Shown: positions 22,365 to 64,000 of the stretch, one piece after another | Layout of the letters: every line of letters starts with the position of its first letter | Position numbering within the stretch: position 1 is the first letter of the stretch | Origin: Streptomyces roseoviridis | GTDB taxonomy: Bacteria > Actinomycetota > Actinomycetes > Streptomycetales > Streptomycetaceae | Reading direction: 5' to 3' | NCBI RefSeq assembly: GCF_039535235.1 | Contig: NZ_BAAAWU010000001.1 | Span: 6,575,001 to 6,639,000, forward strand | Length of the DNA: 64,000 bases | Position numbers and translations under genes: made by a program | The notes under the pieces: generated by a model | The model's database searches: none | The model's input: the letters and a program-made list of their open reading frames with translations, nothing else | What the model was told of the DNA's origin: nothing

Positions 22365-22375
22365 GCGCAACCCTT

Positions 22376-22500
22376 CGTCAGCCGCCTGTGAAGGATGACC
22401 TGTCGGGTTCGGGCAGGCGAAGATGCCCGGCCGCGGCTGCGGCTTCACCCCGAGGAACGTCCCCCACTGCGCGAGACGTCCCGTATTGCTCGGGTCCTCC
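22376..22500 (-). promoter_or_regulatory. ydaO-type c-di-AMP riboswitch (core)
   Basis: Read on the minus strand, the leader contains the family's conserved blocks in order: GTGGGGGACG (22467-22458), GGGGTGAA (22451-22444), GGCCGGGC, and GCCCGAACCCGACAG (22414-22400) followed by GTCATCC and AGGCGGC. These match the ydaO/yuaA consensus that binds cyclic di-AMP and switches cell-wall hydrolase genes off. The 5' boundary of the aptamer is uncertain and may reach about 22600. Confidence 0.85.
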
Positions 22501-26821: not shown

Positions 26822-28535
26822 GCTGCACCGCTCCGTCTACGCCGACCTGTTCGGCCCCACCACCGGCGACCGCGTCCGGCTCGCCGACACCGATCTGCTG
26901 GTCGAGATCGAGGAGGACCGCTCCGGAGGCCCCGGCCGCGCGGGCGAGGAGGCCGTCTTCGGCGGCGGCAAGGTCATCCGCGAGTCCATGGGCCAGTCCG
27001 GCACCACCCGCGCCGAAGGCGCCCCCGACACCGTCGTCACCGGAGCGGTGGTCATCGACCACTGGGGGATCGTCAAGGCCGACATCGGCATCCGCGACGG
27101 CCGCATCACCGCCCTCGGCAAGGCCGGCAACCCCGACACCATGGACGGCGTCCACCCCGACCTCGTCATCGGCCCCGAGACCGAGGTCATCGTCGGCAAC
27201 GGCCGCATCCTCACCGCGGGCGCTGTCGACACCCACATCCACTTCATCTCCCCGACCGTCGTCGAACAGGCCCTCGCCACCGGCGTCACCACCCTGGTCG
27301 GCGGCGGCACCGGCCCGGCGGAGGGCACCAAGGCCACCACCGTCACCCCCGGCCCCTGGCACATGGCCCGGATGTTCGAGGCCCTGGACACCTTCCCCGT
27401 CAACATCGGCCTGCTCGGCAAGGGCAACACCATGTCCCGGCAGGCCATGCACTCCCAACTCCGCGGCGGCGCCCTCGGATTCAAGATCCACGAGGACTGG
27501 GGCGCCACCCCCGCCGTCATCGACGCCTGCCTGGACGTCTGCGAGGAGACCGGCGCCCAGCTCGCCATCCACACCGACACGCTGAACGAGGCCGGATTCG
27601 TCGGGGACACCCTCGCCGCCATCGCGGGCCGCACCATCCACGCCTACCACACCGAAGGCGCGGGCGGCGGGCACGCGCCGGACATCATCACCGTCGTCTC
27701 CGAGCCGCACGTCCTGCCCAGCTCGACCAACCCCACCCGGCCGCACACCGTCAACACCATCGAGGAACACCTCGACATGCTGATGGTCTGCCACCACCTC
27801 AACCCGGCCGTCCCCGAGGACCTCGCCTTCGCCGAGTCCCGCATCCGGCCCTCCACGATCGCCGCCGAGGACGTCCTGCACGACCTCGGCGCCATCTCGA
27901 TCATCTCCTCCGACTCCCAGGCCATGGGGCGGGTCGGCGAGGTGATCATGCGGACCTGGCAGACCGCCCACGTCATGAAGAAGCGGCGCGGCGCCCTGCC
28001 CGGCGACGGGACCGCCGACAACCACCGGGCCCGCCGCTACGTCGCCAAGTACACGATCAACCCGGCCGTCGCGCAGGGCATGGACCACCTCGTCGGCTCC
28101 GTCGAACCCGGCAAGCTCGCCGACCTGGTGCTGTGGGAGCCCGCCTTCTTCGGCGTCAAGCCGCTCCTCGTCCTCAAGGGCGGCCAGATCGCGTACGCGC
28201 AGATGGGCGACGCCAACGCCTCCATCCCCACACCCCAACCGGTGCTGCCCCGGCCCATGTTCGGTGCCCTCGGCCGGGCCGCCGCGGCCGGCTCCGTCAA
28301 CTTCGTCGCCCGCGCGGCGATCGAGGACGACCTGCCGCAACGGCTCGGCCTGCACAAGGAGTTCACCGCCATCGGCTCCACCCGGCGCGTCACCAAGGCC
28401 GACATGCGCGAGAACGACGCCCTGCCCCGGGTCGAGGTCGACGCCGACACCTTCTCGGTGACCATCGACGGCGAACCGGTCGAACCGGCACCCGCCGCCG
28501 AACTGCCCATGGCCCAGCGCTACTTCCTCTTCTGA
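26814..28535 (+). CDS. ureC: Urease subunit alpha
   Basis: Catalytic subunit with the di-nickel site. 573 aa. Visible are the metal-binding [14 protein letters not shown], the [15 protein letters not shown] loop with the carbamylated lysine, [27 protein letters not shown], and the flap [20 protein letters not shown] with the catalytic His. GTG 26814 follows CGGAGGCGACC. Nothing essential appears missing, so the enzyme should be active once metallated. Confidence 0.98.
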
Positions 28536-57581: not shown

Positions 57582-59363
57582 CTACCCGTGCCAGGAACGC
57601 CACAGCGCCGCGTACGCCCCGTCCGCCGCCACCAGTTCGTCATGGCTGCCCAGCTCGCTGATCCGGCCGCCCTCGACGACGGCGATCAGGTCGGCGTCGT
57701 GGGCCGTGTGCAGGCGGTGGGCGATGGCGACGACCGTGCGGCCGTCCAGGACGCGGGCCAGGGAGCGCTCCAGGTGACGGGCCGCGCGCGGGTCGAGGAG
57801 CGAGGTGGCCTCGTCCAGGACGAGGGTGTGCGGGTCGGCCAGGACGAGGCGGGCGAGCGCCACCTGCTGGGCCTGCGCCGGGGTGAGGGCCAGGCCGCCC
57901 GAGCCGACCTCGGTGTCCAGGCCCTCCTCCAGGGCGCGGGCCCAGCCGTCGGCGTCGACGGCCGCCAGGGCCGCCCACAGCTCGGTGTCCCCGGCACCCG
58001 CCCGGGCGAGCAGCAGGTTGTCGCGGAGCGAGCCCACGAAGACGTGGTGCTCCTGGTTGACCAGGGCGACGTGCTCGCGCACCCGCTCCGCCGGCATCCG
58101 CGCCAGCTCCGCCGCACCGAGCGTGACCGTGCCGGATCCCGGGGCGTAGATGCCGGCGAGCAGCCGGCCCAGCGTCGACTTCCCGGCGCCCGAGGGCCCG
58201 ACCAGGGCGAGCCGGGTGCCCGGCGCGACGTCCAGCGACACCCGGTGCAGCACGTCGACGCCCTCCTGGTAGCCGAAGCGGACCTCGTCGGCCCGCACGG
58301 TCCGCCCCTCGGGCCTCAGCTCCGGGTCACCGGCCCCGGGCTGAATCTCCCGCACGCCGACGAGCCGGCCGAGGGACACCTGCGCCACCTGGAGCTCGTC
58401 GTACCACCGCAGCACGATGCCCACGGGGTCGACCAGCATCTGCGCGAGCAGCGCGCCCGTGGTCAGCTGCCCCACGTCCATCCAGCCCTTCAGGACGAAG
58501 ACGCCGCCGACCAGGAGCACGGAGGTGATCACGACCGTGTGGGTGAGGGTGATGACCGGGAAGAGCACCGAGCGGAGGAACAGGGTGTACCTCTCCCACG
58601 CGGTCCATTGGGCGATCCGACGGTCCGACAGCTCGATCCGGCGCCTGCCGAGGCGGTGCGCCTCGACCGTACGGCCCGCGTCCACGGTCTCGGCGAGGGC
58701 GGCGGCGACGGCCGCGTACCCCGCCGCCTCCGAGCGGTACGCCGAGGGGGCGCGCCGGAAGTACCAGCGGCATCCCGCGATCAGCAGGGGCGCGGCGATC
58801 AGCAGCGCGAGCGCCAGCGGCGGCGCGACCACCGCGATGCCGCCGACGAGCAGCGCCGCCCATACCAGGCCGATGACGAGCTGGGGCACCGCCTCGCGCA
58901 TCGCGTTGGCCAGCCGGTCGACGTCCGTGGTGATCCTCGACAGCAGGTCGCCGGTGCCGGCCCGCTCCAGGACGCCCGGCGGCAGGCCCACGGAGCGCAC
59001 CAGGAAGTCCTCGCGGAGATCGGCCAGCATCTCCTCGCCGAGCATCGCCCCGCGCAGCCGTACCAGGCGGACGAACACGGCCTGGACCACGAGCGCGAGG
59101 GCGAACAGCGCGGCGGTGCGCTCCAGGGGGAGCTCCCGGGCCCCGGCCGCCAGGTCGTCGACGAGCGAGCCGAGGAGGTAGGGGCCCGCCATGGAGGCGA
59201 TCACGGCGACGCCGTTGACGGCGACCAGCGCGACGAAGGCGCCCCGGTGGCGGCGCAGCAGCTCCCGGACGTACGACTTCACCGTCGCCGGGGTGCCGAC
59301 GGGCAGCGTCGTCGCGGAGCGGGGCGTCGCCGGGTCGTACGCGGGCGGTGCCAGGCCGATCAT
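57582..59363 (-). CDS. ABC exporter half-transporter B (intact Walker A, degenerate signature)
   Basis: 593 aa: six-helix membrane domain (residues 40-330) then an ATPase domain. Walker A GPSGAGKSTLGRLLAG, Walker B TLVLDEATSLLD and switch His IAHRLHTAHD are intact, but the LSGGQ signature reads ALTPAQAQQVALARL. It pairs with the upstream half-transporter, whose faults are complementary, to give one active composite ATP site. The ATG overlaps the partner's stop (ATGA). Exports a lipid, drug or peptide of unknown identity. Confidence 0.92.
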   Translation of the reverse strand: MIGLAPPAYDPATPRSATTLPVGTPATVKSYVRELLRRHRGAFVALVAVNGVAVIASMAGPYLLGSLVDDLAAGARELPLERTAALFALALVVQAVFVRLVRLRGAMLGEEMLADLREDFLVRSVGLPPGVLERAGTGDLLSRITTDVDRLANAMREAVPQLVIGLVWAALLVGGIAVVAPPLALALLIAAPLLIAGCRWYFRRAPSAYRSEAAGYAAVAAALAETVDAGRTVEAHRLGRRRIELSDRRIAQWTAWERYTLFLRSVLFPVITLTHTVVITSVLLVGGVFVLKGWMDVGQLTTGALLAQMLVDPVGIVLRWYDELQVAQVSLGRLVGVREIQPGAGDPELRPEGRTVRADEVRFGYQEGVDVLHRVSLDVAPGTRLALVGPSGAGKSTLGRLLAGIYAPGSGTVTLGAAELARMPAERVREHVALVNQEHHVFVGSLRDNLLLARAGAGDTELWAALAAVDADGWARALEEGLDTEVGSGGLALTPAQAQQVALARLVLADPHTLVLDEATSLLDPRAARHLERSLARVLDGRTVVAIAHRLHTAHDADLIAVVEGGRISELGSHDELVAADGAYAALWRSWHG

Positions 59364-61249
59364 GCCGACTCCCCTTCCAGTTCGTCCTGCAGCTCTTCGC
59401 GCAGTCCTGCGCGCAGCTCTTCGTCCAGCCGTTTCGACGGCTCTTTCGCCAGTCCGTCGCCGAGCGGGCCGAAGGCCCCCGGATCGCCGTCGGTCTCGCG
59501 GGTGACCACCGCCCGGTAGCGGGGCTCACGGGCGAGCAGGTCGCGGTGGGTGCCGACCGCGACCGCCGTGCCGCCGTCGACCAGGACGACCCGGTCGGCC
59601 AGGTCGAGCAGCAGCGGCGAGGAGGCCAGGACCACCGTCGTCCGGCCGGCCCGCAGCCGCTTGACGCCGGCCGCCACCCGGGCCTCGGTGTGCGAGTCGA
59701 CCGCCGAGGTCGGCTCGTCCAGGACCAGCACCTCCGGGTCGGTGACCAGGGAGCGGGCCAGGGCGAGCCGCTGGCGCTGGCCGCCGGAGAGCGACCGGCC
59801 GCGCTCGGTGATCCGGGTCCGCATCGGGTCGCCGTCACTGTCGACGGAGACCTGGGCGAGGGCGTCGAGGACGTCCCCGCACCGGGCGGCCTCCAGGGCC
59901 TCGGCCGCCGTGACCCTGCCGGAGGACGGCACGTCGAGCAGCTCCGCCAGGGTCCCCGACAGCAGCACCGGGTCCTTGTCCTGGACGAGGACGGCACGGC
60001 GGGCGGCGTCGAGCGGCAGTTCGTCGAGCGGGACACCGCCGAGCAGCACCGAGGCGTGTCCCTCGCCACCGCCCTCCGCGGGATGGCCGCCGAGCCGGTC
60101 CGCGAGCCGTCCGGCGGCGTCCGGGTCGCCGCACACCACCGCCGTGAGCCGCCCCGCCGGGGCGAGCACCCCGGTCACCGGGTCGTACAGGTCACTGCCC
60201 GGCGCCGCTTGAGGAGCGACGGCCGCCGGCAGGGGTCCGCTCGGGGTGGTGGCCGTACGGGACAGGGCGAGCACCCGGGCGGCGCGCGTGGCGGAGGGCC
60301 GGGAGAAGGAGTACGCCATGGCGATCTCCTCGAAGGTGCGCAGCGGATGGTGGGTGAGCGCCACCGCCCCGTACACGGTGACGAGTTGGCCGACCGTGAC
60401 CCTGCCGTCGAGTGCGAGCACCGCTCCGTACACGACGACGCCGACGAGCAACAGGCCCGGCAGCAGCACCTGGATCGCCGCGATCAGGGCCCACATGCGG
60501 GCGCTGCGCACGGCGGCCCGGCGGACCTCCTGCGAGGCGGCCCGGTAGCGGCCGAGGAACAGCTCCTCGCCGCCGATGCCGCGCAGGACGCGCAGTCCGG
60601 CGACGGTGTCGGAGGCCAGTTCGGTGGCCCGGCCGGCCTTCTCGCGCTGTTCGTCGGCCCGGCGGGTGGCGCGGGGCAGCAACGGCAGCGCGGCGAGCGC
60701 GAGGACGGGCACGGCGAGCGCCACCACCAGGCCGAGGTCCGGCTGGTAGAGCACGAGCCCGACGCAGACGAGGACCAGCGCCAGGGCGGCGGACGCGAAG
60801 CGGGAGACCGCCTCGACGAACCAGCCGATCTTCTCCACGTCACCGGTCGAGACGGCCACGACCTCGCCCGCGGCGACCCGCCGGGTCAGCATCGCGCCGA
60901 GCTCGGCGGTCTTGCGCGACAGCAGCTGCTGGACCCGCGCGGCGGCCGTGATCCAGTTGGTGACGGCCACCCGGTGCACCATGGTGTCGCCGGCCGCGAT
61001 GGCCAGGCCGAACGCGACGAGCAGTCCGATCCCGAGACCGAGGCGGCCGCCGTCGCGGTCCACGACCGCCTGCACGGCGATGCCGACGCCGAGCGGCAGC
61101 CCGGCGATGCCGAGGTGCAGCAGCAGCCCCCACAGCAGACAGCTCAGCTGCCCGCCGAGCTGGCGCCGACCGAGCCAGAGGAGGAAGCGGGAGCCCGAAC
61201 GGACGTCCGGTTCCCCCGGGTCGGCATACGGTAGGTCACGAATCTGCAT
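59360..61249 (-). CDS. ABC exporter half-transporter A (degenerate Walker A, intact signature)
   Basis: 629 aa: six-helix membrane domain then ATPase domain. The signature SLSGGQRQRLALARSL and Walker B EVLVLDEPTSAVDS are intact, but Walker A reads VVCGDPDAAGRLADRL (no GK[S/T]) and the switch-loop His is Ser (LASSPLLL). The C-terminus adds a charged helix (LDEELRAGLREELQDELEGE). ATG 61249 begins the family-like QIRDLPYADPGEPDVRSG; the longer upstream frame lacks homology. First gene of a two-gene exporter operon, divergent from the PNGase-like gene. An AAGCGCTT palindrome is 9 bases upstream of the start. Confidence 0.9.
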   Translation of the reverse strand: MQIRDLPYADPGEPDVRSGSRFLLWLGRRQLGGQLSCLLWGLLLHLGIAGLPLGVGIAVQAVVDRDGGRLGLGIGLLVAFGLAIAAGDTMVHRVAVTNWITAAARVQQLLSRKTAELGAMLTRRVAAGEVVAVSTGDVEKIGWFVEAVSRFASAALALVLVCVGLVLYQPDLGLVVALAVPVLALAALPLLPRATRRADEQREKAGRATELASDTVAGLRVLRGIGGEELFLGRYRAASQEVRRAAVRSARMWALIAAIQVLLPGLLLVGVVVYGAVLALDGRVTVGQLVTVYGAVALTHHPLRTFEEIAMAYSFSRPSATRAARVLALSRTATTPSGPLPAAVAPQAAPGSDLYDPVTGVLAPAGRLTAVVCGDPDAAGRLADRLGGHPAEGGGEGHASVLLGGVPLDELPLDAARRAVLVQDKDPVLLSGTLAELLDVPSSGRVTAAEALEAARCGDVLDALAQVSVDSDGDPMRTRITERGRSLSGGQRQRLALARSLVTDPEVLVLDEPTSAVDSHTEARVAAGVKRLRAGRTTVVLASSPLLLDLADRVVLVDGGTAVAVGTHRDLLAREPRYRAVVTRETDGDPGAFGPLGDGLAKEPSKRLDEELRAGLREELQDELEGESA

Positions 61250-61464: not shown

Positions 61465-63072
61465 ATGAGACAACGGAAGATCATGAGCATGATCAGCGGC
61501 CTCACCCTGGCCGCCGGACTCCTGCTCACCGCCCCCACGGCCCACGCGGACGAGGCCCCCGCCACCCCGCCGGCCGAGTTCACCACCGACTGGCACGACC
61601 CGGTCACCGCCGCGCCACCGGTCACCACACCGGGCACTCCCACCTGCGAAGTGACCCTCGCCGAGGCCCAATTCCGGGACTTCACCCCCTACCGGGGGAG
61701 CTACGCCCCGCCCGAGGAGTGCGACGACACCCGCTGGAACAAGGTGGTGCTGCGCCTGGACGGGACGGTGAAGGGCCGTCAGTACGACCGGCTCGGCCAC
61801 CTCGCGGTCGGCGGCGTCGAGATCTTCCGCACCTCCACGCCCCAGCCCTCGCCCGACGGCATCGCCTGGTCCGTCGAGAAGGACGTCACCGCCTACCGCG
61901 ACGTCCTCCGCCGCCCCCAGCCGGTCGAGATGCTCATCGGCAACGTCGTCAACGAGACCTACACCGGCGTCATCGACGTCCGCGTCACCCTCACCTTCCA
62001 CACGGCGCAGGGCCGGGTGAAACCCGCCGCGGGCACCCCCGACCGCGTCCTGCCGCTCACCGCCGGCACCCTGACCACCCCGCGCAACACCGAACGCCTC
62101 CTCGCCGAGGTGTACGCCACCGGCTCGGGCGGCGGCTGCGAGGAGTACTGGTACCTCACCGTCCCCGACGCCGCCCCGTACTCCTGCAAGGCCGCCGAAG
62201 GCCCCTACCGCGAGGTGCGGATCTCCGTCGACGGACGGCTCGCGGGCATCGCCGCGCCCTTCCCGACCGTCTGGACCGGCGGCTGGTCCAACCCCTTCCT
62301 CTGGTACGTGACCCCCGCGCCGCGCGCCTTCGACGTCCAGCCCGTCGTCTACGACCTCACCCCCTTCGCCGCGCTCCTCAACGACGGGCGACCGCACCGC
62401 GTCGAGGTGAGCGTCGCCGGCGTCCCCGCCGGGCAGACCGGCTGGAGCACCCCCGCCAACATCCTGCTCTGGCAGGACGAGGGCCGCGCCGTGGTCACCG
62501 GCGGCCTCGACCGGCACGAGGAGTCCGCGCCGCGCAACACCACGTCCTACACGCCCGGTTCACCCGACCGGCTGGACACCGAGGGCGGTCACCGGCTGAC
62601 CGTCGCCGGCCACCTGAACACCTCGCACGGCCGCGTCGAGACCACCGTCACCCGCGTGCTCGACCACCGCTCCGCGCACCGCTGGGGCGAGGGCGAGAAC
62701 CCCGACGCGCTCACCGCGACCTGGACCGACGACCAGACCGTCACCACCGGCCGGACCACCACCCGCGTCCACCGCACGTACACCATGGACGGCGAGACCA
62801 CCGTCGGCGCCGGCGACCGGCTGCGGACCGTGCTCACCCTCGGCGACCGGGCCCGCACCAGCGTCGTCCGGGGCGGCCGCACCCTGTCGTGGTCCGTGCT
62901 CGACGACACCTACCGCGGCGACGCCACCTACACCACGGGCGTCCCGCGCGACCAGCGCCACGCCGTCGGCACCAGCGCCGAGCGCTACCGCCTGTACGGC
63001 TCCGACGGCTGCTACGACCGCTCCCTGAAGACCGTCCAGGGCACCCTGGTCGAGGACCTGCGGCGCTGCTGA
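61465..63072 (+). CDS. Secreted PNGase A-like peptide-N-glycosidase
   Basis: 535 aa. Signal peptide MRQRKIMSMISGLTLAAG followed by LLLTAPTAHA, cleaved before DEAP. The mature protein has the peptide-N4-(N-acetyl-beta-glucosaminyl)asparagine amidase A (PNGaseA) pattern: CEVTLAEAQFRDFTPYRGSY, WNKVVLRLDGTVKGRQYDR, VGGVEIFRTSTPQPSPDGI and WYVTPAPRAFDVQPVVYDLTPF. The plant/fungal enzyme frees N-glycans from glycoproteins; the bacterial role is inferred as degradation of eukaryotic glycoproteins. ATG 61465 has a weak ribosome site. Convergent with a GH109-like gene. Confidence 0.85.
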   Translation: MRQRKIMSMISGLTLAAGLLLTAPTAHADEAPATPPAEFTTDWHDPVTAAPPVTTPGTPTCEVTLAEAQFRDFTPYRGSYAPPEECDDTRWNKVVLRLDGTVKGRQYDRLGHLAVGGVEIFRTSTPQPSPDGIAWSVEKDVTAYRDVLRRPQPVEMLIGNVVNETYTGVIDVRVTLTFHTAQGRVKPAAGTPDRVLPLTAGTLTTPRNTERLLAEVYATGSGGGCEEYWYLTVPDAAPYSCKAAEGPYREVRISVDGRLAGIAAPFPTVWTGGWSNPFLWYVTPAPRAFDVQPVVYDLTPFAALLNDGRPHRVEVSVAGVPAGQTGWSTPANILLWQDEGRAVVTGGLDRHEESAPRNTTSYTPGSPDRLDTEGGHRLTVAGHLNTSHGRVETTVTRVLDHRSAHRWGEGENPDALTATWTDDQTVTTGRTTTRVHRTYTMDGETTVGAGDRLRTVLTLGDRARTSVVRGGRTLSWSVLDDTYRGDATYTTGVPRDQRHAVGTSAERYRLYGSDGCYDRSLKTVQGTLVEDLRRC

Positions 63073-63080
63073 ACCCGTCG

Positions 63081-63108
63081 TGTCCGGGCCCCGCGCGGGG
63101 CCCGGACA
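63081..63108. terminator. Perfect 28-base palindrome, bidirectional terminator
   Basis: Two exact complementary 14-base halves (TGTCCGGGCCCCGC) lie between the convergent PNGase-like and GH109-like genes. Confidence 0.85.
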
Positions 63109-63138
63109 CCCTGCGGGCCGGGGCTCAGGCCCGGCCGA

Positions 63139-64000
63139 TCAGGCGGGCCTGGCCGAGTCCACGCCGGAGCGGGCCCTGCGCCACTCGCCGCGCGTGAAGT
63201 CCGGGATGGGCTGCGGCGCGCCGTTCGCCTTGATCGAGGCGTGGCTCAGCGGCACGGGCGCCGTCCAGGTCGCCGCGTCGTACACGTCGAAGTCCGGCAC
63301 GAGCCCCAGCCGCATGCACTGCGTCAGCCGGTACACCATGATGTAGTCCATGCCGCCGTGCCCGCCCGGCGGATTGGCGTGCTCCTTCCACAGCCAGTGG
63401 TCGAACTCGGCCGCGTAGGCGCCGAAGTCGCCCCACTGGTGGCCCTTGTGGTCCGGCTCCAGATAGATCCGGGCCGGATAGTCCTCGAAGACGCCCTTGG
63501 TGCCGCCCAGGCTGTTGATCCGGCTGTAGGGGTGCGGCGTCGACACGTCGTGCTCCAGCCGGATCACCCGGCCCTTCGCCGTCTTGACCAGACTGATCGT
63601 CCGGTCGCTCTCGATGTACGACTCCTTCCAACTGGGGTCGCCCTTCGGCACGTTCGCCGCCCGGTACTCGGCGAGGCCCAGCGCGGGCGTGCCGAGGCTG
63701 CTGATGCTGACGGCCCGGTCGCCGCGGTTGACGTCCATGTAGTTGGCGACCGGGCCGAAGCCGTGGTTCGGATACAGGTCGCCGCGCAGCCGGGTGTGCC
63801 ACAGCCGGCGCCACGGCCCCTCGTAGTACGTCGGCGAGAACATCAGCTCGCGCAGGTCGTGGTTGTACGCCCCGGCGCCGTGCAGGAGTTCGCCGAACTT
63901 CCCGGCGTGCGCCATGCGCAGCACCCGCATCTCGTTGCGCCCGTAACAGCAGTTCTCCAGCTGCATGCAGTGCCGCCGGGTCTGCTCGGACAGGTCGACG
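63139..64000 (-). CDS. GH109-type glycosidase (partial, 5' end off right edge)
   Basis: The C-terminal 286 residues of a Gfo/Idh/MocA-fold protein; the NAD-binding N-terminus lies beyond the right edge. The stretch [58 protein letters not shown] and [14 protein letters not shown] is typical of family GH109, NAD-dependent alpha-N-acetylgalactosaminidases. Such enzymes remove GalNAc from O-glycans or blood-group A antigen. With the neighbouring PNGase-like enzyme this suggests glycoprotein use. Secretion cannot be judged because the N-terminus is missing. Confidence 0.8.

Follow-up and report, generated by a model that had tools for sequence, protein, structure and literature searches.

A convergent PNGase A-like and GH109-type gene pair in Streptomyces roseoviridis probably reflects inherited gene order

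Introduction

Several bacterial homologues of PNGase A have been described in organisms of other phyla. PNGase H+ from Terriglobus roseus was discovered through its 28% identity to PNGase A, and N-glycans with core alpha1,3-fucose are among those it releases (PMC4231336); together with PNGase Dj from Dyella japonica it represents the acidic bacterial members of the family (PMC4231336, PMC7348039). In the latter report, 13 candidates were expressed, including the Terriglobus enzyme, two Streptomyces homologues (S. populi and S. albulus) and one from Kutzneria albida (PMC7348039). The Kutzneria albida enzyme was comparable to the Terriglobus one, and the candidates not named as active, which include the S. 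populi and S. albulus homologues, are said to have had negligible activity when assayed at pH 2.0 with denatured horseradish peroxidase (PMC7348039). One member has a solved structure, PDB entry 9vla, entitled crystal structure of PNGase Bb in complex with MUXF glycopeptide. Our literature search found no paper on PNGase Bb, and none since 2023 on a PNGase structure with MUXF. The MUXF glycan occurs on bromelain and carries xylose and a core alpha1,3-fucose. More distant comparators are PNGase F (1pnf), assigned to PF09112/PF09113 (PMC12753239), and the type II PNGases (4r4z, 7zgn). For family GH109, the alpha-N-acetylgalactosaminidases 2ixa and 6t2b serve as the reference.

An earlier note on a stretch of Streptomyces roseoviridis DNA pointed to a PNGase A-like gene facing a GH109-type gene, and proposed that the two secreted enzymes are dedicated to the use of eukaryotic glycoproteins. 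Its remark that bacterial PNGase A proteins are little studied is partly outdated, since assays on purified homologues have been published (PMC4231336, PMC7348039) and one has been solved (9vla). Among the literature matches listed, we recognised no functional study of GH109 in Streptomyces, and none of PNGase or GH109 in Streptomyces N-glycan use. Here we compare the two proteins with their described relatives, and the locus with its counterparts in the genus.

Results and Discussion

The PNGase A-like protein

The window, by which we mean the whole analysed stretch of 64,000 nucleotides, covers positions 6575001-6639000 of a 7.45-Mb single-contig genome. The features relevant to the argument are the following.

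57582..59363, minus strand: ABC exporter half-transporter ABC2, presumed partner of ABC1
59360..61249, minus strand: ABC exporter half-transporter ABC1, divergent from the PNGase gene; start codon inferred at 61249
61465..63072, plus strand: PNGase A-family (PF12222) protein, predicted to be secreted, 535 aa, complete; identified by profile, phmmer and model
63080..63109, no strand: perfect inverted repeat with 13-bp arms and a 4-base loop, seen in the sequence
63139..64536, minus strand: GH109-type NAD-dependent glycosidase with a Tat-type signal, 465 aa; its C-terminal part, 63139..64000, lies in the window

The PNGase-like protein exceeds the PF12222 gathering score by a wide margin (216.4 bits against 25.3; E 5.8e-64, residues 57-347), which places it in the PNGase A family (EC 3.5.1.52). 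No NCBIfam model matched it at E 0.001. Among PDB sequences, 9vla was the sole confident phmmer match (E 7.4e-48), and a profile search returned 9vla at E 6.2e-66 with T4 lysozyme (E 0.14) as the only other row. Judged by eye, the N-terminus (MRQRKIMSMISGLTLAAGLLLTAPTAHADE) looks like a Sec signal peptide. The chain comprises a catalytic domain at approximately residues 56-340, followed by a beta-rich C-terminal domain at approximately residues 345-535.

The AlphaFold2 model, built with 52 sequences, had a mean pLDDT of 79.3 and a pTM of 0.82, with pLDDT below 50 at residues 1-36, 161-166, 221-223 and 268-287. In structural alignment, PNGase Bb (9vla) matched the mature chain from end to end (Z 34.0, residues 38-535) at 28% identity, and Foldseek gave E 1.6e-35 for the same pair. 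The two proteins have the GRQYDR and GC[DE]E motifs in common. They differ in the surroundings of the latter, GCEEYWY in the window protein and GCDEQWF in 9vla, and at position 159, which is Gly in the window protein and Thr in 9vla. PNGase F was absent among the best 50 Foldseek rows; in a VIA-align comparison it matched the model with Z 15.2 over residues 56-339, that is, the catalytic domain. The type II PNGases 4r4z and 7zgn scored Z ~14 and zebrafish Ngly2 scored Z 13.7. The catalytic-domain fold (Z 14-15) and, by motif, the putative Asp and Glu are thus common to the window protein, PNGase F and the type II PNGases, but identity is only 16-20% over the aligned residues, the alignment ends near residue 340, and the window protein matches PF12222 only, as opposed to the PNGase F profiles. 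The protein therefore combines the PNGase catalytic-domain fold with a full-length match to a solved member of the family.

Putative catalytic residues of the PNGase

Conservation was assessed in 111 PNGase sequences: the window's own, 30 from the search of same-genus genomes and 80 named relatives. Residues R105, Q106, D108, R109, G224, C225, E227, W229 and D256 are invariant (111/111), and G159 is kept in 110 of 111, the single exception being Glu. By motif, W59-D60-R61 of PNGase F (sequence letter-exact with 1pnf) fits Y107-D108-R109, and its G-C-A-E206 fits G224-C225-E226-E227. We take D60 and E206 to be the catalytic residues of PNGase F. In an ungapped alignment to the next Asp (D130/D171, 12 residues further on in both proteins), E118 of PNGase F falls on G159.

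The proposed equivalences D60-D108, E118-G159 and E206-E227 rest on motif, spacing and order, and overall fold, because sequence alignments to PNGase F failed and the model is weak near the site. An hhalign comparison of the PNGase A-family alignment with PNGase F gave nothing useful. A profile alignment to PNGase F scored 12.2, against a mean of 4.8 and a maximum of 15.0 in 30 shuffles, and placed none of D60, R61, E118, W191, C204 and E206. The low-confidence stretches of the model at 161-166, 221-223 and 268-287 adjoin the proposed active site. With this in mind, we consider D108 and E227 the putative catalytic residues of the window protein. In published work, the Asp and Glu common to PNGase F and Ngly2 are essential in Ngly2 (PMC12753239), and in type I PNGases the residue at E118 blocks core alpha1,3-fucose, glycine at this position making room for it (PMC9522356). 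From G159 at the E118 position, tolerance of core alpha1,3-fucose is predicted.

The negligible activity reported for the S. populi and S. albulus homologues (PMC7348039) could mean that the PNGase A relatives in Streptomyces have weak catalytic activity or none, and bind N-glycans rather than cleave them. We regard this as unlikely. D108, R109 and E227 are invariant across the 111 sequences, and, in the same study, the actinobacterial homologue from Kutzneria albida was active (PMC7348039). Misfolding or an unsuitable pH would explain the result equally well, because the assays were performed at pH 2.0 with protein made in E. coli (PMC7348039).

The GH109-type protein

The window edge cuts the GH109 gene, and its full length was recovered in the extended locus (L002:6140-7537, minus strand). 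The protein carries both domains expected of the family, an N-terminal GFO_IDH_MocA Rossmann domain (PF01408, E 7.4e-16, 59.4 bits) and the GH109 C-terminal domain (PF21252, E 7e-48, 162.8 bits). It matches 6t2b (GH109 protein 2) at E 2.3e-93 and 2ixa at E 1e-77. An SRRSVLR sequence at its N-terminus was recognised by eye as a Tat-type motif. For both proteins, the family matches are far beyond chance, and the window PNGase and GH109 are ordinary members of known families. The earlier note was correct on the two families and their convergent arrangement, and its view that both proteins are secreted agrees with the Sec-type and Tat-type signals.

The active site of 2ixa, which we take to consist of E149, Y179, R213, Y225, H228 and Y307, was located in the window protein by alignment. 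The corresponding E194, Y224, R243, Y255, H258 and Y337, as well as H393 in the GGHGG loop (to which we presume a role in GH109), are kept in 88/88 GH109 loci, our own included; such BLAST residue counts are per locus (88 for GH109, 113 for PNGase). The window protein thus has the Rossmann and GH109_C domains, the active-site residues and the GGHGG loop in common with 2ixa and 6t2b. In the S. linguale GH109, mutation of H225, which matches H258 of the window protein, to Ala abolished activity (PMC6521355). The residue before the catalytic His differs: it is Thr in both 2ixa and 6t2b, but Asn in the window protein, and across the 88 loci it is Asn in 61, Met in 25 and Thr in 2. Because of this variation beside the catalytic His, the sugar preference of the window GH109 is not to be assumed. 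The GH109 matches of the genus also form two groups by the length of the profile match, 522 to 525 bases versus 501 to 504 bases (loci L033-L062).

Gene order and neighbours in the locus

The PNGase and GH109 genes are convergent, with 66 bp between them. The fold computed for 63070-63139, around the inverted repeat at 63080-63109, has a z value of -3.5, and this repeat is likely to be a terminator shared by the two genes. On the left, the ABC1 and PNGase genes diverge. Inspected by eye, ABC1 contains LSGGQ and lacks Walker A, and ABC2 has Walker A with LTPAQ replacing LSGGQ (57582-61249); we read the two as halves of one heterodimeric ABC exporter that share a split active site between them. 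Elsewhere in the window, two Rfam matches were seen on the minus strand: 5_ureB_sRNA at 26978-27269 (53.7 bits), which may only reflect conservation of urease coding on the other strand, and a c-di-AMP (ydaO/yuaA) riboswitch at 22368-22488 (40.3 against a gathering score of 38).

The earlier note had suggested that extending the sequence past 64000 might reveal further glycosidases and sugar transporters. The 11 kb to the right of the window edge, read through an ORF filter rather than by full annotation, encode beyond GH109 a GlcD-type FAD/Fe-S oxidase, a MarR regulator, an ABC exporter, MltG, a flavin monooxygenase, a UPF0047 protein, a fasciclin-domain protein and an SDR. MltG acts on peptidoglycan. 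No glycoprotein-related gene, sugar transporter or other glycosidase was recognised in these 11 kb. Nor did we find a contiguous set of glycosidase, transporter and regulator for a glycan, the left side holding the exporter pair only. We therefore reject a glycoprotein- or polysaccharide-utilisation locus, none of the recognised right-hand genes being glycoprotein-related. Dedicated use of eukaryotic glycoproteins encoded at this locus is not supported, because glycan-related genes were not recognised beyond the edge, an outcome that the earlier note itself had named as counting against its proposal.

A variable slot in a conserved Streptomyces block

For comparison we used named PNGase loci, the best-scoring 80 of 400 relatives (67-85% identity in the best segment); all are Streptomyces records except one titled 'Actinobacteria bacterium'. 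Block counts refer to the 64 named loci longer than 17 kb, the 16 shorter than 17 kb being excluded, and a locus was assigned to the block when MarR, or else ABC1 together with ABC2, matched at >=50% identity. The order of the block is ABC exporter pair, variable slot, MarR, ABC exporter. By this measure 53/64 long loci lie in the block, 49/53 with both ABC halves. One strain with this block is S. exfoliatus NRRL B-2924 (L063). GH109 is present in 30/53 of the block loci and in 0/11 of the long named PNGase loci outside the block. ABC1 is divergent from the PNGase gene in 49/64 long loci, and GH109 is rarer (30/64).

The same surroundings hold GH109 in genomes without PNGase. In 20 loci chosen from the 42 genomes with GH109 but without PNGase (the group with 501- to 504-base matches), MarR and the ABC exporter adjoin GH109 in 20/20, ABC1 and ABC2 do so as well in 19/20, and a PNGase match beside GH109 was found in 0/20. 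The PNGase and GH109 genes have thus been gained and lost separately within a syntenic block. The stretch beside the PNGase gene was read in 13 loci, and various other genes lie there between PNGase and MarR: symporter ORFs in L106, L118, L121, L130 and L141 (the one in L106, which was scanned, is a dicarboxylate symporter) and GMC oxidase ORFs in L095 and L122 (L095 scanned). L084 has an MFS transporter at this place and L074 a pectate-lyase-like ORF (both scanned). To the left of the PNGase gene in L114, ORFs resembling an L,D-transpeptidase and a membrane glycosyltransferase were recognised by eye. No ORF passing the filter was found beside the PNGase gene in L089, L117 and L134. Since the pectate-lyase-like ORF would be a carbohydrate enzyme acting on plant polysaccharide, the variable slot is not free of carbohydrate enzymes. 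A mobile origin was rejected: there was no phage match, and in the plasmid set a homologue was found in one Streptomyces record, 2.8 Mb long and non-mobilizable.

The association that stands out is that of GH109 with the GlcD-type oxidase. MarR, GlcD and GH109 are co-directional (L002:6140-11135), and GlcD is present in 30/53 block loci. Both genes occur in 25 of the 53, GH109 only in 5, GlcD only in 5 and neither in 18 (Fisher p 1.4e-5, a value that overstates the case because related genomes are not independent). GlcD is also found in 15/20 of the GH109 loci from PNGase-lacking genomes. GH109 might accordingly work with the same-strand GlcD-type FAD/Fe-S oxidase and MarR, unrelated to PNGase, on a soil polysaccharide or glycoside. 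We hold this as a tentative possibility, since the GlcD-GH109 gap of 153 bp in our locus is not tight, and we are aware of no reaction sequence that would connect these enzymes.

Co-occurrence of PNGase and GH109 across genomes

Among 150 same-genus genomes, PF12222 was found in 70 and GH109_C in 68, where the truncated GH109 at the end of a contig in G017 and the PNGase frame interrupted by a stop codon in G067 were also scored as present. Both genes occur in 26 genomes, whereas 31.7 would be expected (Fisher p 0.07, leaning towards avoidance), figures that describe evolution rather than test it, as related genomes are not independent. Co-inheritance of the pair is not supported by these 150 genomes. 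Within the 26, the two genes lie <=3 kb apart in 11, all convergent; they are >280 kb apart on one contig in 4, and on different contigs in 11. Across the phylum, PF12222 was found in 3/296 genomes: that of the window, a second from its genus, and a third from a different family (E 3.6e-10). A second PF12222 type accounts for 1 of the 30 top-scoring same-genus PF12222 loci (L003, G075:C2:931071-931997); it is 36% identical and has the motif GGGCDEQWF, as in 9vla.

These figures bear on the idea that the convergent pair is a functional module for eukaryotic glycoproteins, in which PNGase A would release the N-glycans and GH109 would remove GalNAc, both acting on one and the same material. Both proteins have export signals by eye, the genes lie within 3 kb and converge in 11/26 genomes with both, and GH109 is convergent with PNGase in 30/30 of the GH109-bearing long named loci. 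The genome also encodes further glycoprotein glycosidases, GH101 and GH85 among them. However, co-occurrence shows no excess, GH109 stands in the block without PNGase in all 20 loci examined, no sugar transporter or other glycosidase was recognised next door, and convergent genes would need separate promoters. We consider such a module quite unlikely, and the dedicated pair of the earlier note does not fit with separate gain and loss and with co-occurrence no higher than expected. Far from the locus, the genome has one GH92, one GH85, one GH101 and three GH20 matches. Because these genes are dispersed in the genome, glycoprotein use at the scale of the genome, with scattered enzymes, is plausible.

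Conclusions

We favour, with a probability of roughly 0.8, the reading that PNGase and GH109 are two separate secreted glycan enzymes of known families that happen to lie side by side. They would stand together because both occupy the variable slot of a conserved Streptomyces block, and not because they belong to one pathway; vertical inheritance of the block with its variable slot is the simplest reading. Against it, an adjacent convergent pair in 11/26 genomes would also be expected of a functional pair. The PNGase would leave the cell by the Sec route and there most likely hydrolyse the amide bond that links Asn to the innermost GlcNAc of an N-glycan. D108 and E227 would take the roles of D60 and E206 of PNGase F, and Gly at the E118 position may allow core alpha1,3-fucose, of the plant and insect type, to be tolerated. 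GH109 would be exported by Tat with bound NAD, and would remove terminal alpha-linked N-acetylgalactosamine or a related sugar via transient C3-oxidation.

It is tempting to speculate further, although we find the full combination rather doubtful, that PNGase A enzymes of the Streptomyces clade are N-glycanases which work at neutral pH, tolerate core alpha1,3-fucose and act on plant, fungal or insect glycoproteins, that the Streptomyces GH109 groups with Asn or Met beside the catalytic His have shifted from alpha-GalNAc to another substrate, and that soil streptomycetes scavenge glycoproteins with an uncharacterised set of scattered enzymes made up of these two together with GH85, GH92 and GH101. 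Inherited gene order is the simplest account of this suggestive convergent pair of glycan enzymes, and the predicted secreted PNGase A clade, common in the genus (70/150 genomes), may be a source of N-glycanases and of possible reagents for plant-type glycans.
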